A stretch of 36,079 nucleotides of DNA from an uncultured Rickettsiales bacterium (GTDB lineage Bacteria; Pseudomonadota; Alphaproteobacteria; Rickettsiales; UBA1997), in assembly GCA_905478245.1 (NCBI GenBank), contig CAJQHT010000018.1:1-36079 (forward strand), written 5' to 3'. Under the pieces are notes generated by a model that worked only from the letters and a program-made list of their open reading frames with translations, had not been told where the DNA came from and made no database searches. The position numbers and the translations under genes are program-made. Every line of letters starts with the position of its first letter. Position 1 is the stretch's first letter. Shown here piece after piece: positions 751 to 17,396 of this stretch.

Positions 751-1281
751 CTAAATAAAATATTCTATTTCATAATTCTTTTTGGTAATACCTTCACTTG
801 TAGGGGCAACTAAGATTTTTTTCTTTGCCATGTTTTTAACAATAATTGCATTAGGGCCAATTTTGGCCTCGTCTCCAATATTAATATCACCAATAACTTT
901 TGCTCCAGCGCCAATAATAACAGAATTGCCAATTGTTGGGTGACGCTTTTTATCACTAATTTTACCACTTCCACCAAGTGTGACACCATGATAAATGGTA
1001 ACATCGTCGCCAATAACAGAGGTTTCCCCAATTACAATTCCAGTGCCATGATCAATAAAAATTCTTTTACCAATTTTAGCACCAGGATGAATTTCAATAC
1101 CAGTTAAAATTGAAGCAATATTTGATAAAAAACGCGGCAATATCGGTATATTTAAGCGATAAAGTAAATTTGATATTCTGTAAAAAAACATTACATGTGC
1201 TCCAGGATAGCATAAAATTACTTCAAGTAAAGTTGGCTGAACAGGGTCTTTTTTCTTGATATTTGATAAAAAATCTAACAT
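751..1281 (-). CDS. cysE: Serine O-acetyltransferase (short form)
   Basis: Transfers acetyl from acetyl-CoA to L-serine, giving the O-acetylserine that CysK uses. The 176-residue protein is the short form lacking most of the N-terminal helical domain of enterobacterial CysE (about 270 residues). Signature stretches are HPGAKIGKRIFIDHGTG, GETSVIGDDVTIYHGVTLGG and KKRHPTIG, followed by left-handed beta-helix hexapeptide repeats (IIGAGAKVIGDI, IGDEAKIGPNA). The catalytic His of the IDHGTG motif is present. It lies 27 bases downstream of cysK and is the last biosynthetic gene of the operon. The C-terminal tail that inhibits or docks onto CysK in other bacteria ends in Ile in classic complexes; here it also ends in ...EYFI, so a cysteine synthase complex is possible (inference). 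Confidence 0.95.
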   Translation of the reverse strand: MLDFLSNIKKKDPVQPTLLEVILCYPGAHVMFFYRISNLLYRLNIPILPRFLSNIASILTGIEIHPGAKIGKRIFIDHGTGIVIGETSVIGDDVTIYHGVTLGGSGKISDKKRHPTIGNSVIIGAGAKVIGDINIGDEAKIGPNAIIVKNMAKKKILVAPTSEGITKKNYEIEYFI

Positions 1282-1308: not shown

Positions 1309-2241
1309 CTAAACCTCGATATCTGCAAATAAAATAGAAGAAAGATATCTTTCGCCACATGACGCTAGAATAAATACTATTAATTTACCCTCATTTTCTG
1401 GTCTTTTTGCAACTTCTAAGGCAGCTTTAAAAGCAGCGCCAGAAGAAATTCCTGCCAAAATACCCTCTTTTAAGGCTAATTGTCTAGCATTAGAAACAGC
1501 ATCTTCGTTAGAAACCGTAATAATTTCATCAATTATGTCTTCATCTAAGATATCAGGAATAAAACCAGCGCCAATTCCTTGTATTTTATGTGGCCCCGGC
1601 TCTCCTCCTGATAAAACAGGACTGTCAGCTGGCTCAACTGCAATCATTTTAATATTAGGATTTCTTTGTTTTAGAATAGATCCAATTCCAGTTATTGTCC
1701 CTCCAGTTCCAATACCACTAACTACAATATCAACCTTGCCATCAGTATCTTTCCAGATTTCTTCTGCTGTAGTTTTTTGATGAATTTCAACATTAGCCTG
1801 ATTAGCGAATTGCTGCAACATCACAGAATTTTCTATTTGCGCATTTAATTCTTCAGCTTTTGCAATTGCACCTTTCATGCCTTTTGCCGCCTCCGTTAAC
1901 ACTAATTCAGCACCGTAAGCCTTTAATAATTTTCTTCTCTCCAGTGACATTGATTCTGGCATAGTTAAAATTAAACGATAACCTTTAATGGCAGCAACAA
2001 ATGCTAGCGCAATTCCAGTATTTCCAGAAGTTGGCTCAATTAAAGTATTTTTTCCAGGAATAATTTTTCCAGCCTTTTCAGCAGATTCAATCATGCTTGC
2101 TCCAATTCTATCCTTTACAGAATTAGATGGATTAAAATATTCTAATTTAGCAACAATAATTGCCTTACTTTCATTAAGTTTATTGATCTTAACTAATGGA
2201 GTATTTCCAATTAATTCAATAACATTATTTGCAATTTTCAT
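1309..2241 (-). CDS. cysK: Cysteine synthase (O-acetylserine sulfhydrylase)
   Basis: PLP enzyme that replaces the acetyl group of O-acetylserine with sulfide to make cysteine, the last step of the pathway encoded by this operon. At 310 residues it has normal family length. The PLP Schiff-base lysine is K43 in NPSNSVKDR, the substrate-binding loop TSGNTG is at 71-76, and the phosphate-binding glycine loop GTGGT follows SGI in the second half. These are the standard features of the CysK/CysM fold type II group; overall wording ([33 protein letters not shown]) favours CysK over CysM or cystathionine beta-synthase. The ATG start at 2241 is 13 bases after the cysN stop, in tight operon spacing. 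Confidence 0.96.
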
Positions 2242-2254
2242 TTCTATTTCTATA

Positions 2255-3586
2255 TTATTTTTTTATAAAGTATTTTTTAAAGAGAGAGGTTAGTTCAGTA
2301 AAAAATCCAACATTAGAAGATTTAGATTTCACTAAATCATTAGTGGCTTTATTGATAATACCGCAAGCGATAGTTTCATTAGTGCTTTTGTCTATCAGTA
2401 AAAAGGAGCCTGTTTTTCTATTTGTTGTAAAATCATCAAAAGCTAAGGCATCGGATAGTGAAATATCAATATTAGCAATCTGATTTTGCTCTATTTCCTC
2501 AATATTATTGTCTTTTTGTAAATTTTCAACATTTACATGATAATTCAGATTGTCAATTCTAGCTCTTGTATAATTATGGTTTAATTTTATAAAATATTCA
2601 CAAGCATTATCTTTGTTAAAACTTTCTTCACTAAACCATAGTAAATGACAATTGAATTGATTAGATAATTGTGGTTTATTGGCAAAATCAGATATTAAAC
2701 CACCGCGATCAAGATCAATATCTTTATCTAGCCTAATCAAAGCTGAATTATTGGAATTGGCTGTTTGTGTATCTTTAGAAGAATGAATAATTTCGACAAT
2801 AGTAGCATTTTTTTGCAAAGGATAAGCGCTAATACCATCACCAACATTTAAAATGCCACTAGAAAGAAAACCTTGATAATATCTTTTTCTGTCATCTTTA
2901 ATTACATTTTGAACTTGGAATCTAGTGACAGATTTATCTGAAATCTTTTCCTTAATAGTAAGTAGGTAATCTATAATTGATTTTCCCTCATACCATTTAA
3001 TATTATCACTTTTAACGACAATATTATCACCTGTTAGCGCAATAATTGGCACAAAATAAATATTATCAAAATCAAGATCTTTAACTTTTTGTAAATATTC
3101 TCTTTTAATTTTATCAAAAACTTTTTGGTCATTATTAACCAAATCCATCTTATTAATTGCAACTATTATATTTTTAATACCAAATAAATTAGAGATATAG
3201 CTATGTCTGATAGTTTGAGTTTTAATTCCCTTTAAAGCATCAATTAAAATTATAGCAATATTTGAGTTAGAGGCAGCAACTGCCATATTTCTGGTATATT
3301 GCTCATGTCCAGGGGCGTCAGCTATAATAAATTTCTGATTATTATGAGAAAAATAGCGATAAGCAGCATCAATGGTAATTCTTTGCGATCTCTCTGAAGT
3401 TAAGCCATCTAAAAAGAGTGAAAAATCTAAATCACCTCCCTTAAATGATGCTTCAGTAGATTTTGCTACCTCTTCAATTTGATCCTGATAAAGTGAATTT
3501 GTATCATATAAAAGCCTACCAATTAAAGTAGATTTACCATCATCAACATTACCAGCTGTTAAAAATTTTATTATTTCCTGTGTCAT
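2255..3586 (-). CDS. cysN: Sulfate adenylyltransferase large (GTPase) subunit
   Basis: EF-Tu-like GTPase subunit of ATP sulfurylase; with CysD it makes APS from sulfate and ATP, driven by GTP hydrolysis. The G1 P-loop GNVDDGKST is at 12-20, G3 DAPGHEQY at 90-97 and G4 NKMD at 145-148, followed by beta-barrel domains. The 443-residue length is close to stand-alone CysN, and there is no C-terminal APS kinase (CysC) fusion as seen in NodQ-type proteins. One oddity is the stretch ERSQRITID at 65-73, where homologues usually read EREQGITID, so a conserved glycine next to the switch threonine is arginine. It sits 20 bases downstream of cysD, which agrees with the obligate CysDN complex. Confidence 0.95.
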
Positions 3587-3606: not shown

Positions 3607-4506
3607 TTAAAAATATCCTTCTAATTTTTTCTTTTCCATCGACCCAGATTGATCAGAATCAATTAATCTACCCTGTCTTTCAGAAAATTTACTAGCCTCC
3701 ATTTCAGCAATTATTTTATCTAAATTATCAGCCTTTGATTCAATAGCTCCAGTTAATGGATAACAACCAAGAGTTCTAAAACGAACATCAAGCTTTTCAG
3801 GAGTCTCACCTTTTTCTAAAGGCAGGCGCTCGTCATCAACCATAATCTTAGTTCCAGCCCTATCAACAACTGGTCTTTTTTTAGAAAAATATAAAGGAAC
3901 AACTTCTATTTCTCTTTCTTTAATATATTGCCAAATATCAAGCTCTGTCCAATTTGAAAGAGGAAATACACGCATTGACTCACCCTTATTAATTTTGCAA
4001 TTAAAAATATTAAACATTTCTGGTCTTTGTGATTTTGGATCCCAACCATGAAATTTACTTCTAAAAGAAAAAATTCTTTCTTTAGCACGAGATTTTTCCT
4101 CATCTCTTCTGGCGCCACCAAGAGCAACATCAAATTGATATTTATCCAAGGCCTGTCTTAAACCTTCAGTCTTCATAATATCGGTATAAACCTTGCTTCC
4201 CTCACCAAAAGGGCTAGCTTTTTTCTTCACACCCTCTTGATTAGTATGAACTATTAAATCTAGACCAAATTTCTTTGCTTGCGCATCACGAAATTGGATC
4301 ATTTCTTTAAATTTCCAAGTTGTATCAATGTGTAATACCTTAACTGGTGGTTTTATTGGATAAAAAGCCTTTAAGACTAAATGTAAAAGTACCGAGGAAT
4401 CCTTTCCTATTGAATATAAAAAAACCGGATTATCAAATTCTGCAATTGCTTCGCGAATTATATAAATTGACTCATCTTCTAGAGCCTGTAAATGTTTACT
4501 AACCAT
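3607..4506 (-). CDS. cysD: Sulfate adenylyltransferase small subunit
   Basis: Catalytic ATP-pyrophosphatase-fold subunit of ATP sulfurylase, partner of CysN encoded next downstream. The 299-residue protein has normal length. The PP-loop-type motif [13 protein letters not shown] is near residue 31, and the family-typical stretches [32 protein letters not shown] and [15 protein letters not shown] are present. The C-terminus carries the usual [18 protein letters not shown]-like segment. Start ATG at 4506 lies 7 bases after the cysI stop. Confidence 0.96.
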
Positions 4507-4513
4507 TTTAATT

Positions 4514-6148
4514 TTAATTTTTAATTAACTTATAAGAAAAATCACCAAAAGTTTCATTTTCTTGTTTCTCACGCACATATTGTGCAAATAAAATATCAAG
4601 ATTCTCCAAAATATCATTTTCATTTAGATCTTCTTTATAAAGAGTATTTAGCCTTTCCCCAGTGGCACTGCCACCAATATACATATTATAAATACCCATG
4701 GCCTTACCAACAAAGCCTATTTCAGCCATAAACGGCCTAGCACAACCATTAGGACAGCCAGTCATGCGAATTGACACGGGATTATCAGCAATATCATGTT
4801 TTTTTAATAACAATTCAAATTTACTAATTAAATCTGGCAAATATCTTTGACCTTCAGCTAAGGCTAAAGGGCAAGTATTTAAAGCCACACAAGCCATTGC
4901 ATTTTTTCTAATATTAGAAATTCCATCATTACTAACATTATATTTTGCCAATATTTTTTCTACTTTTTCTTTATTTTTAGCTTCAATATTACTAATAATA
5001 ACATTCTGATTTGAGGTAAATCTGATATCTGATAAATTATTCTTAGTAATTTCAAGTAAAGCAGTTTTTAATTGCGCCTTTTCATCATCTAAAATACGAC
5101 CATTTTCGACAAATATTAAATTATGATATTTGCCAGCATAATCTTGATGCCAACCATAATAATCATTTCTGGTTTCAAATTGAAAATGCTTAGCAGCTTC
5201 TAATTTAACACTACGCTTCTCTATTTCCTCTCTAACAAAATCAACTCCAAGCCTAGCTACGGTATATTTAAAACGAGAAAGTTTACGATCTTCTCTGTTT
5301 CCATAATCTCTTTGAGTGGTAGCAATAGCTTCTGCTACCTTAATAATATTTTCTTTATCAGTATAGCCAATTAAATTACCAATTCTTGGATAGGTATTTT
5401 CATTACCATGAGTATTGCCCATACCACCACCAATAACAATATTAAAACCTTTCAATATTTTATTTTCAATAATAGCAATTAAACCAACATCATGAGCATA
5501 TAAATCCACATCATTATCAGGAGGAATAGCTATCACTATTTTAAATTTTCTTGGTAAATATGTTTCGCCATAAATTGGCTCTACTTCTTTTGTTGTTACC
5601 TTTTCTCCGTCCAGCCAGATTTCCTGATAAGCATTAGTTGATGGAAGCAAATGTTCACTAATTTTCTTTGAAAATTCATAAACTTCATCCTCCGCCTTAG
5701 ATCCAGCAATAGTAGATGTAGACATGATATTTCTATTAACATCACCACAAGCAGCAATTGAATCTAAATCATATTTGTCAAACCAAGAAACAGTAGGTTT
5801 TAAAGTTGATTTAATAACACCATGTAATTGTATAGTTTGACGAGTTGTAACCTTGATAATACCAGTCGAATATTGATCAGCAATCTCGTTAGATCCAACC
5901 CATTGCTTCGCAGAAATTTTTCCACCAGGAATTCTAAGTCTAATCATAAAAGAATAAAGAGGTTCAAGTTTCTTTTCCGCTCTTTCATCTCTACGATCTC
6001 TGTCGTCCTGCTGATAAATACCATGAAATTTAATAACAGTCTGATCATCCTCAAATAAAGATCCCGTTATTGGGTTTTCTAAACTTTCATCAAGAGTACC
6101 TCTTAATTTTTTACTTTTTACTTTTATTCCTTCCGCCTTATTACTCAT
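4514..6148 (-). CDS. cysI: Assimilatory sulfite reductase hemoprotein subunit (beta)
   Basis: Reduces sulfite to sulfide with six electrons passed from the CysJ flavoprotein to a siroheme-[4Fe-4S] centre. The four cluster ligands are C420, C426, C465 and C469, spaced C-x5-C-x38-C-x3-C exactly as in E. coli CysI. The siroheme-side motifs [10 protein letters not shown] (101-110), GDVNRNIM (135-142) and [10 protein letters not shown] (240-249) are intact, and the C-terminus GFGDF-like tail reads TFGDFSYK. Length (544) is close to the family. It lies 37 bases downstream of cysJ, so the holoenzyme subunits are adjacent. The siroheme should come from CysG in the same operon. Confidence 0.97.
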
Positions 6149-6185: not shown

Positions 6186-7622
6186 TTAATATACATCAAG
6201 CAAATATCTATCTTGATTTTTCAATTCTTCAAGATACTGCAAAGCTTGATCGGTAGTTTTTTTACCACTGACCTCGATAATTTTTAATAATGCCACCTCT
6301 ACATCTTTTGACATTTTTTCTTTATCTCCACAAACATAAAAATAAGCACCATTTTCTAGCCATTTAAATAATTCTTCACCCTGCTCTATAATTTTATGCT
6401 GCACATAAATTTTTTCTTTTTGATCACGAGAAAAAGCAACATCAATTTTATTTAACAGTCCAGAATCAAGATAATCTTGCCATTCAGTCTGGTATAAAAA
6501 ATCTTTTAAGAAGTTACATTCACCAAAAAATAACCAATTTTTACCTGAGCTATTCTGAAAATTTCTTTCAGCCATAAAGGATCTAAAAGGTGCAATTCCA
6601 GTACCTGGCCCAACCATTATAATATCTTTTTCATCAGCAGGTAGTTTAAATTGACGATTTTTACTAACATAAAGATTAAGTTTATCACCCTCTTTCAAAG
6701 AAGCTAAATAATTAGAACATAAACCTTTTTGCTCCTTACCATTTTCATCATTATATTTTAAAACTGAAACAGTTAAATGCACCTCATTCTCCGTCTCATT
6801 AACACTTGAAGCAATTGAATAAAGTCTTGGGGTAATTTTTTTACCCTCATCGTCAAGTATAATAATTCCAATTGAATCACCTGGTTCATAATGAATATCA
6901 TCTTCAACAGCTATTTCAATATGTCTGGTTTCTTTAACTGAACCATTATCACTTAAAATAACATTAGTTAGAATTTCACCTTCATAATTTGCTTTATTGG
7001 TAGATTTTGTAGCCACAGCAGTAGATGCAGAAACCTGCGCCCCAAAAGCAGTAAATATTTTATTTTTAATATCTTCTAAATGATCTTCAAAATCTAAATT
7101 TAAGTCCATTCTTTGACCTAGATTATTAGCTCCAAGTTCGTTTAATCTAGATTCAAGGTCTTTTCCAGACTGGCAAAATAAAGGATAATTAGTATCACCC
7201 AAAGCAACAACAAAATAATTTAAATTATTAAGTTTTAAATCTTCACTTTTAACAAATTCCCAGAATTTTTTGCCAGGTTCAGGCATTTCACCCTCACCAT
7301 GAGTACTGATGATAAAAATAACATTCTTTTCTTTAGTTAAGTCATTAAATCTATATTGATTTGAAGCCTTAATTTTTACATTAACCGACTTATCTTTTAA
7401 AGATTTAGATAATTCAGCTGCTATAAATTTAGAATTACCAGTTTCAGTAACATAAATAATTGTTAATTTATCAACTAAACCAGAAGTATCAATTTTCGCC
7501 AAAGAATTAACAGAGCCACCCAGAGCAAGGGCAGAAAGATAGCCGCTAGACCATAGTAATTCCTCTTTGCTAGATTTACTAATAAATTGATCTAAAATTT
7601 TTTGCAATTCACTTTTTAACAT
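6186..7622 (-). CDS. cysJ: Sulfite reductase flavoprotein subunit (alpha), lacking the usual connecting domain
   Basis: Moves electrons from NADPH through FAD and FMN to CysI. The order is a flavodoxin-like FMN domain (TETGN at 59-63, STHGEGEMPEPG around 106-117, LGDTNYPLFC at 141-150), then an FNR-like part with YEPGDS at 245-250, RLYS FAD motif at 266-269, GPGTGIAPFR at 338-347 (nucleotide binding) and the C-terminal CGDKEKMSKDVE and final Tyr at 478. Length is 478 against about 600 in E. coli. The missing part is specific: between YEPGDSIG and TPRLYSIASS only about ten residues remain, where E. coli CysJ has roughly a hundred residues of helical connecting domain. Flanking motifs are well conserved, so this looks like a clean, functional deletion rather than decay (inference). 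It lies 11 bases downstream of cysH. Confidence 0.94.
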   Translation of the reverse strand: MLKSELQKILDQFISKSSKEELLWSSGYLSALALGGSVNSLAKIDTSGLVDKLTIIYVTETGNSKFIAAELSKSLKDKSVNVKIKASNQYRFNDLTKEKNVIFIISTHGEGEMPEPGKKFWEFVKSEDLKLNNLNYFVVALGDTNYPLFCQSGKDLESRLNELGANNLGQRMDLNLDFEDHLEDIKNKIFTAFGAQVSASTAVATKSTNKANYEGEILTNVILSDNGSVKETRHIEIAVEDDIHYEPGDSIGIIILDDEGKKITPRLYSIASSVNETENEVHLTVSVLKYNDENGKEQKGLCSNYLASLKEGDKLNLYVSKNRQFKLPADEKDIIMVGPGTGIAPFRSFMAERNFQNSSGKNWLFFGECNFLKDFLYQTEWQDYLDSGLLNKIDVAFSRDQKEKIYVQHKIIEQGEELFKWLENGAYFYVCGDKEKMSKDVEVALLKIIEVSGKKTTDQALQYLEELKNQDRYLLDVY

Positions 7623-7633
7623 TTTAATTTAAC

Positions 7634-8365
7634 TTAATTTTTTTTATTATTTGATTTTACAAATTTACCATTAACCATATGAATACCACATTCTTGTTTA
7701 TTATCACTTTCCCACCACCATCTACCAGAGCGAGCATCTTCACCATCTTTGACGGCTCTTGAGCAAGGGTCGCAACCAATTGATTTATAACCTTCATCAT
7801 ATAATTTATTATAAGGAATATTATTTTTTTTAATATATTTCCAGATTTCATCCTCATTTAAATCTAAAATAGGGTAAAATTTTATAATATTCAAAGATTT
7901 ATCAAATTCAAGTAGGTTTTTGCTCTCACGATTGATATTATGCTCTTTTCTGACACCTGAAATCCAAATTTCTTTACCATTAAGCGCTTTTTTCAATGGC
8001 TCAACCTTTCTAATATGGCAACATTCAAGTCTCAAATCTAAATTATTATAAAAAGAATTTATACCTTTATTTTTAACAAAATCAGCAATTTTATCAGCAT
8101 CAGGATAGAAAACATTAATTTTTTTCTGATATTTATCTAAAACCTCTTGCCATAATTCATAGGTTTCGCTAGGTAGGCGACCTGTATCAATAGCAAAAAC
8201 TTCAATATTTAACTCATTTTTAAAGATTTCATCACAAATAATCTGATCCTCAATACTAAAACTAGTAGAAAAAGTAATATTTTTATAATTTTTAGCAATA
8301 AAACCAAGTCTTTCCTGCCAAGTTAGATTTTCAACATTATTAATTATTTTACTTATATCTAACAT
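7634..8365 (-). CDS. cysH: Adenylyl-sulfate (APS) reductase, [4Fe-4S] type of CysH
   Basis: Reduces activated sulfate to sulfite with thioredoxin or glutaredoxin. The 243-residue protein has the PP-loop-type start (FSTSFSIEDQ, 32-41) and the C-terminal catalytic ECGIH (C226). It also has the two cysteine pairs ECCHIRK (C115, C116) and GCDPCSR (C198, C201), which in this family ligate a [4Fe-4S] cluster and mark enzymes using APS; PAPS-only reductases such as E. coli CysH lack them. This fits the operon, which has ATP sulfurylase but no APS kinase. The stop side is 11 bases from cysJ, and the start overlaps the cysG 3' end by 7 bases, suggesting translational coupling. Confidence 0.94.
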   Translation of the reverse strand: MLDISKIINNVENLTWQERLGFIAKNYKNITFSTSFSIEDQIICDEIFKNELNIEVFAIDTGRLPSETYELWQEVLDKYQKKINVFYPDADKIADFVKNKGINSFYNNLDLRLECCHIRKVEPLKKALNGKEIWISGVRKEHNINRESKNLLEFDKSLNIIKFYPILDLNEDEIWKYIKKNNIPYNKLYDEGYKSIGCDPCSRAVKDGEDARSGRWWWESDNKQECGIHMVNGKFVKSNNKKN

Positions 8366-9792
8366 TCTACCTCCTTTCTTTTTCTGGGATTTTTAAAATA
8401 AACACCATCTAAATTTTCTTCCTTCCATTTAAAATCATGATGCTGATTAACGATGTCGCCAATAATAGTAATTGATGGCGAAATAAATTCTTTTTCAGCA
8501 AAGTCATTGTCAAAATTCTCCAAACTACTTATGTAAGTTTTTTGATAAGGCGTAGAAGCCTGCTCAATTACGGCTAAGGCAGTTTTTTTATCCTTTCCAG
8601 CTCTAATTAAATTTCTACTAATAACAGAAAGATTATGCGAAGACATATAAAGCACCAGAGAATCATTGCTTTGAGCTAAATTATCAAAATATTTATTATC
8701 AAATAAATCCTTTTCATAGATAGTTAAAAATCTAACTGATTTATTAGAATCCCGAGATGTTAATGACATTCCAGACAATGCAGCGGCAGCACTTGCCGCG
8801 GTAACTCCAGGAACAATTTGGTAAGGAATATTAATATTTTTTACAACTGCAATTTCTTCACTTAAATGAGCAAAAATAGTAGCATCTCCACCTTTTAACC
8901 TAGCAACTATATTGCCCTCTTTCGCAAACTTAGCAATTAAATCATTAATTTCATTTTGCTTATAACGATGAGAATCTCTTTTCTTTCCAACATTAATTTT
9001 AATAGCGTCTCTACGGGCATAATCAAGAATATCTTCTCCTACCAAGCGATCATAAAGCACAATATCGGCTTTTGAAAGTAAATTAACTGCTTTTATTGTC
9101 ATTAATTCAGCATCACCAGGGCCAGCACCAATGAAATAAACCGCTCCCTGTTTTTTATTTTCAATATCAGCAAGTTTATCATCAAATAATTTTTGTGCTT
9201 TTTTAATATTTTTTATTGCAATTTCAGCGCCAATTACACCCTCTATAACATCTTGCCAAAAAATCCGACGAGCTTGTAAATCAGTTAATTTTTTACGCAC
9301 CTTACCCTTATTTAATAAAATAAACTCATTAAAACCATCAAGATTTTTAATTAGGCTTAAATTAATTTTTTTCTTCAATATTCGAGCCAAAACAGGAGAC
9401 ATTCCAGAGGTGCCAATGGAAATCATAATATTTTCCTTCTTAACACTAGCACCAAAAATAAAATCAGAATTTTTAGGGTCATCAACGATATTAATTAAAA
9501 TACCAAGTTCTTTAGCGTCATTTCTAATTTTTTGATTGATTAAATTATCATTTGTTGCAGCTATAACAATATCAAAACCCTTTAAATCAGCCTTTTCATA
9601 GCTTTTTTCAGTGTAATTTATGTTATTTTCAATTATTAAATCATGCATTTGATCTAATTTATCTTTAGACACAATTTTAACATCTGCTTTAAACTCAAGC
9701 AAAGATTCCAATTTAGCTAAAGCTATATTACCAGCCCCAACTATGAGAAATTTAATATTACCAATGTCTAAAAACAGTGGAAAATATGACAT
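8359..9792 (-). CDS. cysG: Siroheme synthase: precorrin-2 dehydrogenase/ferrochelatase fused to uroporphyrinogen-III C-methyltransferase
   Basis: Makes siroheme for CysI from uroporphyrinogen III. The first roughly 210 residues are the CysG_N dehydrogenase/chelatase part, with the Rossmann motif LIVGAGNIALAKLE near residue 16 and the SIGTSGMSPVLAR segment. The second part is the SAM-dependent methyltransferase, beginning YFIGAGPGDAELMTIKAV, with LYDRLV and VPGVTAASAAAA. Total length 477 is normal for the trifunctional protein. I chose the ATG at 9792; a TTG one codon upstream (9795) is possible. One oddity is RLKGGDATIFAHLSEE, where the family reads RLKGGDPFIFGRGGEE, so several normally invariant residues are changed. 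First structural gene of the cys operon, behind the poly-Cys leader. Confidence 0.93.
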   Translation of the reverse strand: MSYFPLFLDIGNIKFLIVGAGNIALAKLESLLEFKADVKIVSKDKLDQMHDLIIENNINYTEKSYEKADLKGFDIVIAATNDNLINQKIRNDAKELGILINIVDDPKNSDFIFGASVKKENIMISIGTSGMSPVLARILKKKINLSLIKNLDGFNEFILLNKGKVRKKLTDLQARRIFWQDVIEGVIGAEIAIKNIKKAQKLFDDKLADIENKKQGAVYFIGAGPGDAELMTIKAVNLLSKADIVLYDRLVGEDILDYARRDAIKINVGKKRDSHRYKQNEINDLIAKFAKEGNIVARLKGGDATIFAHLSEEIAVVKNINIPYQIVPGVTAASAAAALSGMSLTSRDSNKSVRFLTIYEKDLFDNKYFDNLAQSNDSLVLYMSSHNLSVISRNLIRAGKDKKTALAVIEQASTPYQKTYISSLENFDNDFAEKEFISPSITIIGDIVNQHHDFKWKEENLDGVYFKNPRKRKEVEC

Positions 9793-9810
9793 CAAAAAAT
9801 AAAATTAATT

Positions 9811-9905
9811 AAAAAAGAAATTGTCTTAAAAAAGACATGAATAATGTTCAAAGAACACAGCCAAATTATAAAATAAATGGCAAAGATATAAAGCTAGGAA
9901 CTAGC
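9811..9905 (-). promoter_or_regulatory. Candidate attenuator of the cys operon (hairpins and terminator-like stem between leader peptide and cysG)
   Basis: On the minus strand three small stems follow the poly-Cys codons. Stem 1 (9893-9905) is GCTAG-TTC-CTAGC and includes the last Cys codon and stop of the leader. Stem 2 (9845-9857) is TGTTC-TTT-GAACA. Stem 3 (9822-9837) is TGTCTT-TTTT-AAGACA, directly followed by the T-rich run ATTTCTTTTTT (9821-9811), as in an AT-rich intrinsic terminator. The 3' arm of stem 3 can alternatively pair with TGTTCTT of stem 2 with one bulged base, which would break stem 3. This is the layout expected for ribosome-controlled attenuation. Stems are short, so energies need computing. 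Confidence 0.5.
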
Positions 9906-10008
9906 AACAACAACGACAACAACAACAAAAAGAGGCAGGAGAGAAAGTTTTTACGATATTAGATTTTGTAAATCCATCAAAGGATTTGTTAGAATTTGAA
10001 TAATCCAT
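9901..10008 (-). CDS. Poly-cysteine leader peptide of the cys operon (35 codons)
   Basis: A short minus-strand ORF from ATG at 10008 to TAG at 9903-9901, which I found by reading the gap. It starts MDYSNSNKSFDGF and ends PASF-CCCC-R-CCC, so seven of the last eight codons are Cys (six TGT, one TGC). It lies about 110 bases upstream of cysG, the first gene of the cysteine biosynthesis operon, in the same orientation. Leader peptides rich in codons for the operon's end product are the classic sensing part of ribosome-mediated attenuation (trp, his, leu operons), and poly-Cys leaders before cysteine genes have been described in actinobacteria. No good Shine-Dalgarno is visible before the ATG; an in-frame TTG lies three codons upstream. 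The peptide itself probably has no other job (inference). Confidence 0.82.
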   Translation of the reverse strand: MDYSNSNKSFDGFTKSNIVKTFSPASFCCCCRCCC

Positions 10009-10101
10009 ATTTATCAAAATTTATTAAAAACTTAAAAAATAAAGGCATTAATTTATAAAATATTATACATTATTTAAACTAAAGAAACGCTTTGGTTGAA
10101 A

Positions 10102-10130
10102 ACACTATAAACAATTAATAATTAAGTCAA
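10102..10130 (-). promoter_or_regulatory. Possible sigma-70 promoter for the leader-cys operon
   Basis: On the minus strand TTGACT (10130-10125) is followed after 17 bases by TAGTGT (10107-10102), or after 15 bases by TATAGT. Transcription would start near 10096, about 90 bases before the leader ATG and about 300 before cysG. A perfect TATAAT also lies at 10067-10062 but has no clear -35 box. The -10 match is weak, so the exact promoter is uncertain. Confidence 0.35.
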
Positions 10131-12721: not shown

Positions 12722-14194
12722 ATGAAAACATTAGAAATCAGCAGCACTCAAGAAGAGGAAGTTATAGCTAGAGCCAATTTATCAAATATCGAAGCTGAGC
12801 AAATAATTTTAGGCAGTATTATTATCAATAATGAATATATTCATAAAATTTCTGAATTTCTATTAGACGAGCATTTCTGCGAACCGGCACATCAAATAAT
12901 TTATAATCAAATCCTACATAATGTTAATAAGGTAAATATCATCGCTAATGAAGTCACTTTAAAGCATTTTTTCGACAATGATGAAACTATCTCAGCTTTA
13001 GGCGGGGTTATGTATTTAAACAATCTTTTAGCAAAGGCTACAGGTATTATTGACATAATTGATTACGCAAATCTCATTTATGATTTCGCTTTAAAAAGAA
13101 ATTTAGTCATAATTGGTGAAAATATTGTCAATGACGCTTATAAGGTCAATAATATAGAAAGCGCAGAACAGCAAATTGAATTAGCAGAATCTAATCTTTT
13201 TAATTTAGCCTATAATGAATCAAATAGTAGTGATTTTCGTAATATTTCAGCCGCCCTTAAAGAAACATTGGATAAAACTTTAATTGCTAAAAATAGAGAT
13301 GGCAATATTAGCGGTATTTCCACTGGACTTAGAGATCTAGATAAAATTTTAGGCGGCATGCAAAATTCTGATTTAATAATTTTAGCCGGCAGGCCAAGTA
13401 TGGGTAAAACCGCTCTTGCCGTTAATATCGCCCTTAATGCTTGTAAATTTTTAAATAAAAACCTTGAAGATAAAAAATCAGTTGGTTTTTTCTCTTTAGA
13501 AATGCCGGCAGATCAACTATCTGCTCGTATTTTATCAATGGAAACCAGTATTAATGCCACAAAATTCAGAAATGGCGATATTGACGAGCAAGAATGGGAA
13601 GCGTTAACTAGAACTAGCGCCCAAATTGCTCAATTACCATTTTTTATTGATGACACCCCTGCTCTTTCCATCGCCGCTATTAGAACACGAGCCAGAAGAT
13701 TAATCAGAAAACATAATCTTGGCTTCTTACTTATCGATTATCTACAATTAATCAGAGGCTCCACCAAAAGATCAGAGCAAAATAGAGTTCAGGAGATATC
13801 AGAAATAACACAAGGCTTAAAAGCAATTGCTAAAGAATTTAATATCCCTGTAGTAGCACTCTCGCAGCTTTCTCGTGCTGTTGAAAATAGAGACGATAAA
13901 CGGCCGCAACTTTCAGATCTTAGGGAATCTGGCTCAATTGAGCAAGATGCTGATGTGGTTTCTTTCATATATCGTGAAAGCTATTATTATGAGAGAAAAC
14001 GACCAAGCGACGAAAATAGTGAAGAATTTAAAATTTGGCAAGAAAAAATGGAGGGCAATGGCGCCACCGAGAAAGGAATTCAAAATATTTCAGAAGTTAT
14101 AATAGCTAAGCAAAGAAACGGTCCAATTGGTAATATAAAATTATTCTTTGACGCCGAACATACCAGATTCACCGATCTAGATCAAAATCATTGA
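12722..14194 (+). CDS. dnaB: Replicative DNA helicase DnaB
   Basis: Hexameric 5'-3' helicase that opens the replication fork. The 490-residue protein has the N-terminal DnaB domain (NIEAEQIILGSII from about residue 20) and a RecA-like C-terminal domain with Walker A GRPSMGKT near 223-230, FFSLEMPADQL, the Walker B segment LLIDYLQLI, and SQLSRAVENRDDKRPQLSDLRESGSIEQDAD. No intein is present, although dnaB often carries one. Monocistronic, with its own promoter upstream and a strong palindrome downstream. Confidence 0.98.
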   Translation: MKTLEISSTQEEEVIARANLSNIEAEQIILGSIIINNEYIHKISEFLLDEHFCEPAHQIIYNQILHNVNKVNIIANEVTLKHFFDNDETISALGGVMYLNNLLAKATGIIDIIDYANLIYDFALKRNLVIIGENIVNDAYKVNNIESAEQQIELAESNLFNLAYNESNSSDFRNISAALKETLDKTLIAKNRDGNISGISTGLRDLDKILGGMQNSDLIILAGRPSMGKTALAVNIALNACKFLNKNLEDKKSVGFFSLEMPADQLSARILSMETSINATKFRNGDIDEQEWEALTRTSAQIAQLPFFIDDTPALSIAAIRTRARRLIRKHNLGFLLIDYLQLIRGSTKRSEQNRVQEISEITQGLKAIAKEFNIPVVALSQLSRAVENRDDKRPQLSDLRESGSIEQDADVVSFIYRESYYYERKRPSDENSEEFKIWQEKMEGNGATEKGIQNISEVIIAKQRNGPIGNIKLFFDAEHTRFTDLDQNH

Positions 14195-14252
14195 TAACTT
14201 AAAGTCTTACCTTTAATGGATTATGCAGGCAAAATATTTTTTGACATAAAAA

Positions 14253-14284
14253 AAACCCCTTCTTGAAATTTCAAGGAAGGGTTT
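14253..14284 (-). terminator. Intrinsic terminator after pilin-like gene 1 (hybrid arms)
   Basis: Inverted repeat centred at 14268/14269; left arm AAACCCCTTCTTGAAA, right arm TTTCAAGGAAGGGTTT, with two interior mismatches. On the minus strand it is followed by a run of T (plus-strand A run 14248-14255), so it should end transcription of the pilin gene; it may also stop dnaB transcripts from the other side. The left arm matches the terminator of copy 3 and the right arm that of copy 2. Confidence 0.85.
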
Positions 14285-14304
14285 AATTTAATTACAAAAA
14301 TTAA

Positions 14305-15033
14305 TTATAGATCAAATGTAATATTACATGATATTGTGTCATCAGCATCAATAACACTTTCGCAATCCACACCAGATATAGCACCTACTTCACTACCACC
14401 ATAGCTTGCTGGCGTTTTAGACCTAATGAGACCCGTGGAAACAACTCCATCATCCATTTTATTATCAATAGATATAGCCTGATTATAACTCATACCAGGT
14501 TCAATATGCCTATATTCATCATTAATATCAACTTCACCATATATTTCACTTTCAATTCCAGCTAAGAAAAGTACATTCTTAGCAATAGCTCTACTACCAA
14601 ATATCCAGCCAGCCGTTTTTATTTTAGCTGAAGGGAGTAAGGGACCTACATTGTTGTCATTATAATAATCCATACCACCTATGTCAGCTGCATATAAGCC
14701 TTGTAAAGCTTGGTCTCCTTCATAGACACCATCATAATAATTATCAATAGTACCATTAGCATTACCTTTTTTAGTTATCACCATCCCGCGAGTTAGAACA
14801 GCATCATAATCACCTGGTAAACTATCATATTTAACAAAAAAAGCATTAGCAGCAATTTTATAATCCCTGGCTTCAGCCATAACAGCACGAAGTTCAGCAG
14901 ATTTAATTAAAGAAGCACCACCAGTAATACCAGCGAGTAATAAACCAATAATGATTAATACAATTGAGAGTTCAATTAATGTAAAAGCACTTCTTTTTGA
15001 AGGGCTTTTGTTCGTTTTTTTATAATTTGACAT
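14305..15033 (-). CDS. Type IV pilin-like prepilin, tandem copy 1
   Basis: A 242-residue protein with a class III prepilin signal. A basic leader (K5 K6, K9, K13 R14) ends at S15-A16, then the mature N-terminus F17-T-L-I-E21 with the conserved Glu at +5 and a hydrophobic helix (LSIVLIIIGLLLAGITGGASLI). The residue before the cut is Ala, not the usual Gly. The soluble part contains GNANGTIDN, KIKTAGWIFGSR, KMDDG and, near the end, two cysteines (VDC...ISC) ahead of the final SFDL-like FDL, suggesting a disulfide loop as in pilin D-regions. Function would be as a pilus or pseudopilus subunit exported and assembled at the inner membrane; which machine is unknown, since no assembly genes lie in this window. 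Copies 2 and 3 upstream are paralogues. Confidence 0.85.
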   Translation of the reverse strand: MSNYKKTNKSPSKRSAFTLIELSIVLIIIGLLLAGITGGASLIKSAELRAVMAEARDYKIAANAFFVKYDSLPGDYDAVLTRGMVITKKGNANGTIDNYYDGVYEGDQALQGLYAADIGGMDYYNDNNVGPLLPSAKIKTAGWIFGSRAIAKNVLFLAGIESEIYGEVDINDEYRHIEPGMSYNQAISIDNKMDDGVVSTGLIRSKTPASYGGSEVGAISGVDCESVIDADDTISCNITFDL

Positions 15034-15108
15034 AATTTAATAATTAATAATTAATATAAGTTTTATTAGTAAAAAATACATAAATATTATATATTTCCCT
15101 CTAACCCC

Positions 15109-15137
15109 AGTATAACATATAAGACAAACAATGTCAA
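15109..15137 (-). promoter_or_regulatory. Sigma-70 promoter of pilin-like gene 1
   Basis: Minus strand TTGACA (15137-15132), 17 bases, TATACT (15114-15109). Same position relative to the start codon as the promoters of copies 2 and 3, with changed spacer sequence but kept boxes, which supports function. The 5' leader would be about 70 bases. Confidence 0.75.
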
Positions 15138-15445
15138 ATATGTTTTTATTTTTTTTAAGTAATTAACTGTTATTAAATAGCAAATATTATTCAAAAATCA
15201 TTTTTATAAAATAATAAAAAGTAAAATAATTTTATTTTATTTTTTAACACAAACTATCTATATTATCTATAGCACCTTATAAAATGACTTCAGGCCATTT
15301 TTATTAAATATTATAATATATTTTAAAACAAATTGACCTTTATTATTATCATTTTCTTTTAATTAAAAAAATATGTATAATTTTGACCCAATACCAAATC
15401 CCATCCCCAATAAACAAATATAACTAAATATTTTTTGACATAAAA

Positions 15446-15477
15446 AAACCCTTCCTTGAAATTTCAAGGAAGGGTTT
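15446..15477 (-). terminator. Intrinsic terminator after pilin-like gene 2
   Basis: Perfect 16-base inverted repeat, AAACCCTTCCTTGAAA with its exact complement, followed on the minus strand by a T run (plus-strand A run 15442-15448). Lies 37 bases beyond the stop codon of copy 2. Confidence 0.9.
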
Positions 15478-15514
15478 AATTAATTAAGAATAATTTAAAT
15501 TATCCTTAAATTAA

Positions 15515-16195
15515 TTATAGATCAAATGAAACACTACAGTGTATATAATCACTACCATTAGCATTAGTATCTGCGCACACTGTAGAAAGTGACATGTAGG
15601 ATCTAATACGACCTGTATCAAGAACTCCATCATCCATTTTTCTATCCATAGAGTCAGCTTGATGGAAACTTACACCATTATTAGGGGCTATGGAAAAAAT
15701 GTTTTGACCAGTTAAAGCAGGAGTACTAATACCGCCAGAACCAGTTAATAAAATTACATTCTTAGCAATATCTCTACTACCAAATATCCAACCAGCCGTT
15801 TTTATTTTAGCATTAGGGATAATGGCACTAGTTGCCGTCTCCAAACCACCCATATCAGCTCCATATAATGCCTCTAAAGCTTCTGATCCCTCAAGAACAG
15901 AATCACTAGAAAAATTATCAATAGTACCATCAGCATTACCTGCAGAAGCATTACCTACAACTACATCATGATCACCTGGTAAATTATCATATTTAACCAA
16001 GAAAGCATTAGCAGCAATTTTATAATCCCTAGCTTCAGCCATAACAGCACGAAGTTCAGCGGCTTTAATTAAAGAAGCACCACCAGTAATACCAGCGACC
16101 AATAAACCAATAATAATTAATACAATTGAAAGTTCAATTAATGTAAAAGCACTTCTTTTTGAAGAGCTTTTGTTAGTTTTTTTATAATTTAACAT
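15515..16195 (-). CDS. Type IV pilin-like prepilin, tandem copy 2
   Basis: A 226-residue paralogue of its neighbours. Basic leader, cut site RSA-FTLIE (Ala before Phe17), hydrophobic helix through IIGLLVAGITGGASLI, then the conserved stretch ELRAVMAEARDYKIAANAF. The rest diverges from copies 1 and 3 but keeps GNADGTIDN, LYGADMGGL, KIKTAGWIFGSRDIAKNV, SMDRKMDDGVLDTGRIRS, and a C-terminal cysteine pair (TVC...IHC) before SFDL. The DNA for the first 60 or so codons and the whole upstream region is almost the same as in copy 3, which points to recent duplication or gene conversion. Has its own promoter and terminator. Pilus or pseudopilus subunit; specific system unknown. Confidence 0.85.
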   Translation of the reverse strand: MLNYKKTNKSSSKRSAFTLIELSIVLIIIGLLVAGITGGASLIKAAELRAVMAEARDYKIAANAFLVKYDNLPGDHDVVVGNASAGNADGTIDNFSSDSVLEGSEALEALYGADMGGLETATSAIIPNAKIKTAGWIFGSRDIAKNVILLTGSGGISTPALTGQNIFSIAPNNGVSFHQADSMDRKMDDGVLDTGRIRSYMSLSTVCADTNANGSDYIHCSVSFDL

Positions 16196-16282
16196 AATTT
16201 AAAGTTTTAAAGTTTTAAAGTTAATAAAAATAAAGTTTTATAGTTAGAAATCCACAAACATTATAAATTTCTCCCTAACCAT

Positions 16283-16311
16283 ATTGTAACACATAAAATG
16301 AACTATGTCAA
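16283..16311 (-). promoter_or_regulatory. Sigma-70 promoter of pilin-like gene 2
   Basis: Minus strand TTGACA (16311-16306), 17 bases, TACAAT (16288-16283). Near-consensus boxes and spacing; leader of about 80 bases containing the octamer repeats. Confidence 0.8.
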
Positions 16312-16620
16312 ATATGTTTTTATTTTTTTAAGTAATTAACTGTTATTAAATAGCAAATATTATTCAAAAATCATTTTTATAAAAAAATAAAAAGTAAAAT
16401 AATTTTATTTTATTTTTTAACATAAATTATCTATAACACCTTATAAACTGGCTTTAGGCCATTTTTATTAAATATTATAATAGATTTTCAAAAAAATTGA
16501 CCTTTATTATTATCATTTTCTTTTAATTTAAGAAATATGTATAATTTTGACCTAATATTATTTATAGATAATACTTAATAAAACTAAGGCAAATCGAAAA
16601 CCACTTATTTTAATATAAAA

Positions 16621-16650
16621 AACCCCTTCTTGAAATTTCAAGAAGGGGTT
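16621..16650 (-). terminator. Intrinsic terminator after pilin-like gene 3
   Basis: Perfect 15-base inverted repeat AACCCCTTCTTGAAA and its complement, with a T run following on the minus strand. Differs from the copy 2 terminator by paired changes that keep the stem perfect. Confidence 0.9.
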
Positions 16651-16670
16651 AATTTAATTAAAAAAATTAA

Positions 16671-17396
16671 TTATAGATCAAATGTAACACTACAGTTTAT
16701 ATAGTCATCACCATTGATATGAGTTTCACAAATATCAGCAGTAACATTACCTCTTCTTCCAGCAACAACACTTTTGGTAGATCTAACACGACCTTTATCA
16801 AGAACTCCATCATCCATTTTTCTATCAATAGAGCCAGCCTGCTGATAACTTACACCAGGATTACTAGCTTTTGAAGTAATATTAACCTTGTTATTCTGGC
16901 GTTTCAAAACTCTTTCGATGCCTTCTGCCCCAGTTAAGAATACAACATTCTTACCAATATCTCTACTGCCAAATATCCAGCCAGCTGTATCTATTTTAGC
17001 TTTAGGGATATTATTGTAATCTGCACCATCTAAGCCACCCATATCAGCTTCAAATAATGCCTGTAAAGCTTCCGATCCTTCTCGAACATTGGCGGTATCA
17101 CCAATCTCAACAGTTTGATTAATAGTACCATCATTATTACCAGCAACGACAGTACCAATAATTACATCATAATCACCTGGTAAAGCATCATATTTAGTAA
17201 AGAAAGCATTAGCAGCAATTTTATAATCCCTAGCTTCAGCCATAACAGCACGAAGTTCAGCGGCTTTAATTAAAGAAGCACCACCAGTAATACCAGCGAC
17301 CAATAAACCAATAATAATTAATACAATTGAAAGTTCAATTAATGTAAAAGCACTTCTTTTTGAAGAGCTTTTGTTAGTTTTTTTATAATTTAACAT
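16671..17396 (-). CDS. Type IV pilin-like prepilin, tandem copy 3
   Basis: A 241-residue paralogue, first in transcription order of the three but with its own promoter. The same prepilin leader and cut site (RSA-FTLIE), hydrophobic helix and AEARDYKIAANAF stretch occur at the N-terminus. The variable part keeps GNNDGTIN, LFEADMGGLD, KIDTAGWIFGSRDIGKNVV, SIDRKMDDGVLDKGRVRS and a C-terminal cysteine pair (DIC...INC) before VTFDL. The N(A/N)DGTI element, shared in some form by all three copies, resembles a small Asp/Asn-rich calcium-type loop, but this is only a likeness. Upstream lies the repeat at 17797-17973 and then lgt on the same strand. Confidence 0.85.
   Translation of the reverse strand: MLNYKKTNKSSSKRSAFTLIELSIVLIIIGLLVAGITGGASLIKAAELRAVMAEARDYKIAANAFFTKYDALPGDYDVIIGTVVAGNNDGTINQTVEIGDTANVREGSEALQALFEADMGGLDGADYNNIPKAKIDTAGWIFGSRDIGKNVVFLTGAEGIERVLKRQNNKVNITSKASNPGVSYQQAGSIDRKMDDGVLDKGRVRSTKSVVAGRRGNVTADICETHINGDDYINCSVTFDL

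Follow-up and report, generated by a model that had tools for sequence, protein, structure and literature searches.

A conserved Cys-run leader ORF before the cysteine operon of a Rickettsiales clade as a probable cysteine-responsive attenuator

Introduction

Polycysteine leader open reading frames (ORFs) are described before the cys operons of Mycobacterium, Propionibacterium acnes and Bifidobacterium in the passages that treat them in Seliverstov 2005 (PMC1262725) and PMC9031893, in agreement with what an earlier note on the DNA analysed here had said of actinobacteria. The polycysteine leader work of Canestrari 2020 is cited in parts of PMC9031893 and PMC13236596. In the sections of PMC1262725 concerned, Seliverstov and colleagues, 2005, weakly suggested Rho-type attenuation for mycobacteria, and polyY motifs were reported as not conserved there. 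Here we analyse an upstream ORF (uORF) that ends in a run of Cys codons and lies directly 5' of a cysG-cysH-cysJ-cysI-cysD-cysN-cysK-cysE operon in a 36,079-nucleotide (nt) stretch of DNA from an uncultured Rickettsiales bacterium, hereafter the window (genome G000, 1.41 Mb in 67 contigs; G, L, C and f numbers are our handles for genomes, loci, contigs and families). Such leaders were found before cysG in nine Rickettsiales genomes and before a second gene in five genomes without the operon.

Like the actinobacterial polycysteine leaders, those of Rickettsiales consist of a short uORF with a Cys run beside the stop codon before cysteine or sulfur genes, with no conserved terminator and with downstream pyrimidine-rich stretches, but they belong to another phylum. 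The 2020 work of Canestrari is said to show that in mycobacteria an RNA structure hides the ribosome-binding site of the gene that follows. The mycobacterial uORF is leaderless, whereas the Rickettsiales one is predicted to follow a 5' untranslated region (UTR). Moreover, no conserved or consistent pairing with the downstream start was seen in Rickettsiales, where it is suggestive just in family f22, and the pyrimidine-rich spacer is present in all 14 Rickettsiales leaders while mycobacterial polyY is not conserved. On sequence comparison, the Rickettsiales leader appears to resemble the actinobacterial one in outline, minus the leaderless start and the conserved masking structure.

In the uORFC-8-2 motif before cysS, two tandem Cys codons are embedded in a conserved RNA that has two stems and an intrinsic terminator (PMC8632094). 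In both systems the Cys codons of a uORF presumably sense charged tRNA-Cys, but the gene here is cysG, and the leader region shows no such RNA fold and gave no Rfam match at E values up to 1. The hairpin attenuators of the trp, his, ilv and thr operons of proteobacteria likewise carry regulatory codons for the end product of their own operon; unlike them, the Rickettsiales spacers hold no conserved antiterminator/terminator pair. In tnaC, the leader of the E. coli tryptophanase operon, the ribosome at the leader end shields a Rho site beside the stop codon, and TnaC stalls on its nascent peptide with free Trp, signalling excess. The shielding logic proposed below is alike, with a presumed role of Rho, but stalling in the Rickettsiales leader would come from Cys-tRNA shortage.

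A search of the open-access literature for leader peptide, cysteine and Rickettsiales returned no report of a polycysteine leader in this order, as the earlier note had supposed, and none for other proteobacteria was among the top results. Two Rickettsiales genome papers treat these cysteine genes, and the passages searched in them mention no leader; the relevant part of one Rickettsiales genome paper states that the cysteine genes of crown and basal Rickettsiales differ in phylogenetic position. The published cases of RNA-level cysteine control that we found are the actinobacterial polycysteine leaders and a cysS motif, to which the Rickettsiales leader would add a Gram-negative case.

The leader ORF and its conservation

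The leader comprises two features in the window:
9901..10008, minus strand: uORF (putative leader peptide) of 35 amino acids (aa), MDYSNSNKSFDGFTKSNIVKTFSPASFCCCCRCCC followed by the stop, read from its translation and with counterparts in eight other genomes
9904..9927, minus strand: Cys-codon run (TGT)4 CGT (TGT)2 TGC directly 5' of the TAG stop, the putative stall site under cysteine limitation, from codon reading; its Cys-rich end is kept in 9/9 operon-bearing clade relatives

Without the stop, the codons of MDYSNSNKSFDGFTKSNIVKTFSPASFCCCCRCCC occupy positions 9904-10008 of the minus strand, and a TTG at 10017, three codons 5' of the leader ATG, could act as an alternative start and lengthen the ORF. 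The tail reads TGT TGT TGT TGT CGT TGT TGT TGC TAG, so that Cys makes up seven of the eight last codons (CCCCRCCC-stop). The leader stop is separated by 108 nt from the cysG ATG (105 nt from an alternative cysG TTG), and the leader lies 255 nt past the end of the preceding rnhA-like ORF. Translation and codon reading bear out the 35-codon minus-strand ORF of the earlier note, with its seven Cys in the last eight codons, and gene checks against Pfam and NCBIfam place it, as claimed, directly 5' of the eight-gene cys operon on the same strand. A possible second copy of the peptide in the same genome (a match on C20, E value 0.06) was discarded, as its inspection showed no Cys-run ORF.

A CysG homologue of the window type is present in 15 of the 344 genomes of the order. 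Directly 5' of cysG, a uORF with a Cys-rich end was found in nine of these 15; all nine belong to one CysG clade that spans three Rickettsiales families. In these clade genomes the uORF lies 42-108 nt from cysG and its final codon before the stop is Cys (9/9). Their leader tails, each followed by the stop codon, are:
G000: SPASFCCCCRCCC
G063: AARSFFAAACCCCRC
G060: AARSFSSSACCCCCC
G067: FMPSFAACCCCC
G055: MMPSKNCCCCC
G008: VSACCCPASFSCC
G151: ICTLPCCVACCC
G175: AMSSVYCCLCCCC
G174: AMSSACCCLCCC

The leaders use both Cys codons, TGT and TGC, and the tract abuts the stop codon. The peptides are 23-45 aa long, and their Cys end is kept while the remainder drifts. G063 and G060 have CysG proteins that are 96% identical, yet the first halves of their uORFs are dissimilar, with the central block and the Cys tract kept; in G174 and G175 a Leu codon within the Cys tract is TTA in one and CTG in the other, a synonymous double change. 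Comparison of relatives upstream of cysG gave the pattern that the earlier note had proposed as a test: in 9/9 operon-bearing genomes of the clade the Cys run is kept and the other residues drift.

No Cys-run uORF was seen upstream of cysG in the six remaining Rickettsiales genomes with this gene, which belong to other families, and 73 more distant siroheme-synthase loci, drawn from many phyla, had none either. The CysG tree groups the nine sequences that have a leader in a single clade (support 88/94), which is sister to five of the six Rickettsiales sequences without a Cys-run uORF, the sixth (G314, partial) having been left out; all of them stand well apart from eight outgroups. Operon-bearing relatives that lack a Cys-rich ORF, which the earlier note had named as an outcome against its proposal, were confined to more distant Rickettsiales families in a separate CysG clade. 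Scans for a TGY run plus stop covered the leader genomes, their order and the class, with a pattern that required five uninterrupted Cys codons; among the matches listed, none of the inspected candidates was a Cys-run leader of cys genes beyond the clade, and the matches were mostly repeats in other reading frames. Since among the genomes tested the leader was seen just on the operon type of one CysG clade, it bears on retention or regain of the pathway in Rickettsiales.

In the same tree, G008 (family f1) pairs with G151 (family f19) with strong support, contrary to the family assignment. To judge from this grouping, operon plus leader may have been transferred between families.

The earlier note had also held that such a run is too unlikely for chance, Cys being rare, and the figures agree. 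Cys accounts for 0.9% of the residues in the long ORFs of the window. When the upstream 300 nt were shuffled with dinucleotides preserved for the 14 leaders (nine before cysG and five before the second gene), an ORF with at least five Cys in its last ten codons arose in 1 of 4200 cases, against 12 of the 14 real leaders. The same Cys criterion picked 1 of 52 control genes, through an out-of-frame ORF inside a coding sequence at a locus that had been chosen for its Cys pattern.

Promoter and spacer

Two features flank the uORF:
10102..10130, minus strand: candidate promoter TTGACT-17-TAGTGT by consensus match, at a distance of 93 nt from the leader ATG
9793..9900, minus strand: spacer from the leader stop to the cysG ATG, 69% pyrimidine and 9% G, with no Shine-Dalgarno sequence; candidate Rho-loading or stall-masked region

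For eight of the nine cysG leaders, consensus matches place a TTGAC/TTGAT-type -35 box and, 27-42 nt 5' of the uORF start, a -10 box; the corresponding distance in the window is 93 nt. Given this predicted promoter spacing, the uORF is probably the first cistron of the transcript, with a 5' UTR, and not leaderless.

A pyrimidine-rich, G-poor spacer is the feature common to all 14 leaders. The spacers between leader and gene average 70% pyrimidine (minimum 60%), against 48% (maximum 68%) for 52 control genes of the same loci (Mann-Whitney p = 1e-8), and C clearly exceeds G in most of them. The missing Shine-Dalgarno sequence at cysG was dropped as a special trait: 12 of the 14 downstream genes have none, but SD-like sites occur in just 5 of the 52 controls as well.

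Proposed mechanism and alternatives

Position, codon choice and conservation of the leader fit a ribosome-mediated sensor of charged tRNA-Cys, and we consider it highly probable that the peptide encoded by the uORF is the leader of an attenuator that responds to cysteine through the ribosome and controls the sulfate-assimilation/cysteine operon. From the compared sequences we infer that the leader would be translated and would work as follows. When Cys-tRNA is scarce, the ribosome would halt on the Cys codons just 5' of the leader stop and cover this stop together with the 10-15 nt of spacer that follow it, a reach past the stop that corresponds to the established footprint of a stalled ribosome; expression from cysG to cysE would then rise. 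When cysteine is plentiful, the leader would be completed, the ribosome would depart and leave the spacer naked, and expression would be switched off.

For the OFF step, the most likely candidate is Rho, which would act in a tnaC-like manner on the spacer, rich in pyrimidines and poor in G, once it is naked; we make this proposal tentatively. If Rho loaded on the exposed pyrimidine tract, regulation would have the sign that a biosynthetic operon calls for, and full-length rho scored above the cut-off in 13/13 genomes tested. Composition and length of the spacers weigh against this step. The spacers of G000, G067 and G151 are U-rich and not C-rich, with C about equal to G, which is a poor fit to a classical rut site, and spacers of 42-60 nt are short for such a site. 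Two further points weigh against the attenuator reading in general: folding was significant in three of the 14 leaders (G151, z -4.4; G008, z -3.1; G000, z -2.1), at differing places, and the modelled opening energy of the cysG start shows no consistent change with a ribosome on the Cys codons. The three significantly structured leaders suggest that the downstream element may differ between genomes; Rho, pairing with the start region and an intrinsic terminator would be alternative downstream steps of one sensor, which may vary by genome. For a hairpin-free downstream element, 14 natural leader variants are available for study.

A rather doubtful alternative to the Rho step is translational attenuation as in mycobacteria, in which leader RNA would pair with the cysG start region and a ribosome halted in the Cys tract would block the pairing. 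In family f22 (G174 and G175) the leader segment TGTCATCT, directly 5' of the Cys codons, is the perfect complement of AGATGACA, which spans the cysG start codon, and the leader-start duplex reaches z values of -2.2 in G174, -1.6 in G175, -1.6 in G063 and -2.6 in G071. However, the mean over the 14 leaders is just -0.6, with several positive values, and in the model a ribosome on the Cys codons brings no consistent drop in the energy needed to open the start. In addition, the 12 downstream genes without a Shine-Dalgarno sequence offer none to mask, such sites being rare in the controls too (5/52).

Attenuation of the classical kind, in which the halted ribosome would relieve an intrinsic terminator placed between leader and cysG, seems unlikely. 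Two terminator-like elements were noted in the window:
9811..9837, minus strand: AU-rich hairpin TGTCTTTTTTAAGACA then ATTTCTTTTTT, a weak intrinsic-terminator-like site not conserved in relatives
9893..9905, minus strand: small hairpin GCTAGTTCCTAGC overlapping the leader stop, flagged as terminator-like and not conserved

The first of these and the folding of G000, G008 and especially G151, with its strong hairpin, agree with such a terminator. However, the other 11 of the 14 leaders folded little or no better than shuffles (best z = -0.7), the hairpins stand at different places, that of G151 lacks a clean U-run, and no Rfam family matched. Folding of the 14 leaders revealed no intrinsic terminator 5' of the first gene that is conserved among them.

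It is very improbable that the peptide has a function of its own as a small Cys-rich protein, for instance a metal-binding one, whose site before cysG would be incidental. Cys runs could bind metals, and the peptides of family f1 have a short PASF/ARSF/PSF-like motif beside the run, but the Cys end alone is kept, length (23-45 aa) and remainder drift even at 96% CysG identity, and the run abuts the stop of an ORF invariably placed 42-108 nt before the operon. Finally, a TGY trinucleotide repeat fortuitously open in the leader frame deserves hardly any credence: these genomes do contain many TGY repeats with a stop-like triplet after them, but comparative sequence data already contradict chance. 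The run occurs at one site in 9/9 relatives, compared with about 0.5% or less of the shuffles, and has mixed TGT/TGC codons always in frame with the start and an immediate stop.

A second target of Cys-run leaders

Cys-run uORFs were also found 56-66 nt before a second gene in five genomes without the operon, which belong to two genera (G062, G070, G071, G059 and G011). The loci are:
L256, 981-1479
L258, 2000-2557
L257, minus strand
L265, 1340-1842
L267, 1342-1848

The protein encoded, of 108-118 aa, is small and predicted to be exported, with a signal-like N-terminus. It ends in a conserved RL..FGCC-like motif in four of the five genomes (often RLMLFGCC or similar) and in FGC in G011. In at least four of the five genomes its gene is followed by a small lipoprotein-like ORF that contains Cys, and neither this neighbour nor the protein itself matched Pfam. 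A carboxylesterase-like gene and ccmA adjoin in the longer loci, with a divergent proS in two. No cysG was found in the five genomes, several of these assemblies being incomplete, and no homologue of the second-target protein in the six genomes of the family that carry the cys operon.

It is conceivable, and we propose it with some reserve, that the clade uses a hairpin-free cysteine-sensing leader, made of a Cys run at the stop and a pyrimidine-rich spacer read by Rho or another factor, for the cys operon and, in operon-less genomes, for small exported proteins. This would constitute a stalling-only regulon separate from the actinobacterial one, and the second target may point to the function of the exported protein pair in lineages without the operon.

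Other Cys-run ORFs were observed. In G001 (L259, 155-244) the uORF MKSSSFHKLLFLSLSRTSSFTCCNCCCCC ends 52 nt before a gene whose 741-aa product matches nothing in Pfam or NCBIfam, and this uORF is absent before the homologues of that product. A Cys-run ORF before an MNIO enzyme gene of G059 (L261) was rejected, as it sits inside another coding sequence in a different frame. At the same locus (about 13700-16700, minus strand), the MbnB/TglH/ChrH-family (MNIO) gene adjoins one whose small exported product contains several Cys, so that this Rickettsiales genome has a bufferin-like arrangement.

The cysteine operon and neighbouring genes

The genes of the operon downstream of the leader, identified against Pfam and NCBIfam, are all on the minus strand:
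8359..9792, minus strand: cysG, siroheme synthase, the first structural gene (ATG at 9792; TTG at 9795 also possible)
7634..8365, minus strand: cysH, thioredoxin-dependent APS reductase type (TIGR02055, above cut-off)
6186..7622, minus strand: cysJ, sulfite reductase flavoprotein (Pfam/NCBIfam)
4514..6148, minus strand: cysI, sulfite reductase hemoprotein (Pfam/NCBIfam)
3607..4506, minus strand: cysD, sulfate adenylyltransferase small subunit (Pfam/NCBIfam)
2255..3586, minus strand: cysN, sulfate adenylyltransferase large subunit (Pfam/NCBIfam)
1309..2241, minus strand: cysK, cysteine synthase A (Pfam/NCBIfam)
751..1281, minus strand: cysE, serine O-acetyltransferase (Pfam/NCBIfam)

Because cysH is of the APS-reductase type, an APS kinase would be unneeded. 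The gene order is identical in the seven loci with long flanks. Just 3' of cysE, at 560-740 on the minus strand of the window, an ORF beginning MFEQSFKNIDDILHKDAGCGSELDYVEQTSWVLFLKYLDDLE resembles the N-terminus of type I restriction HsdM. Elsewhere in the window (14305-17396, minus strand) there are three tandem, closely alike prepilin-like genes, whose products of about 226-242 aa have the common N-terminus KRSAFTLIELSIVLIIIGLL.
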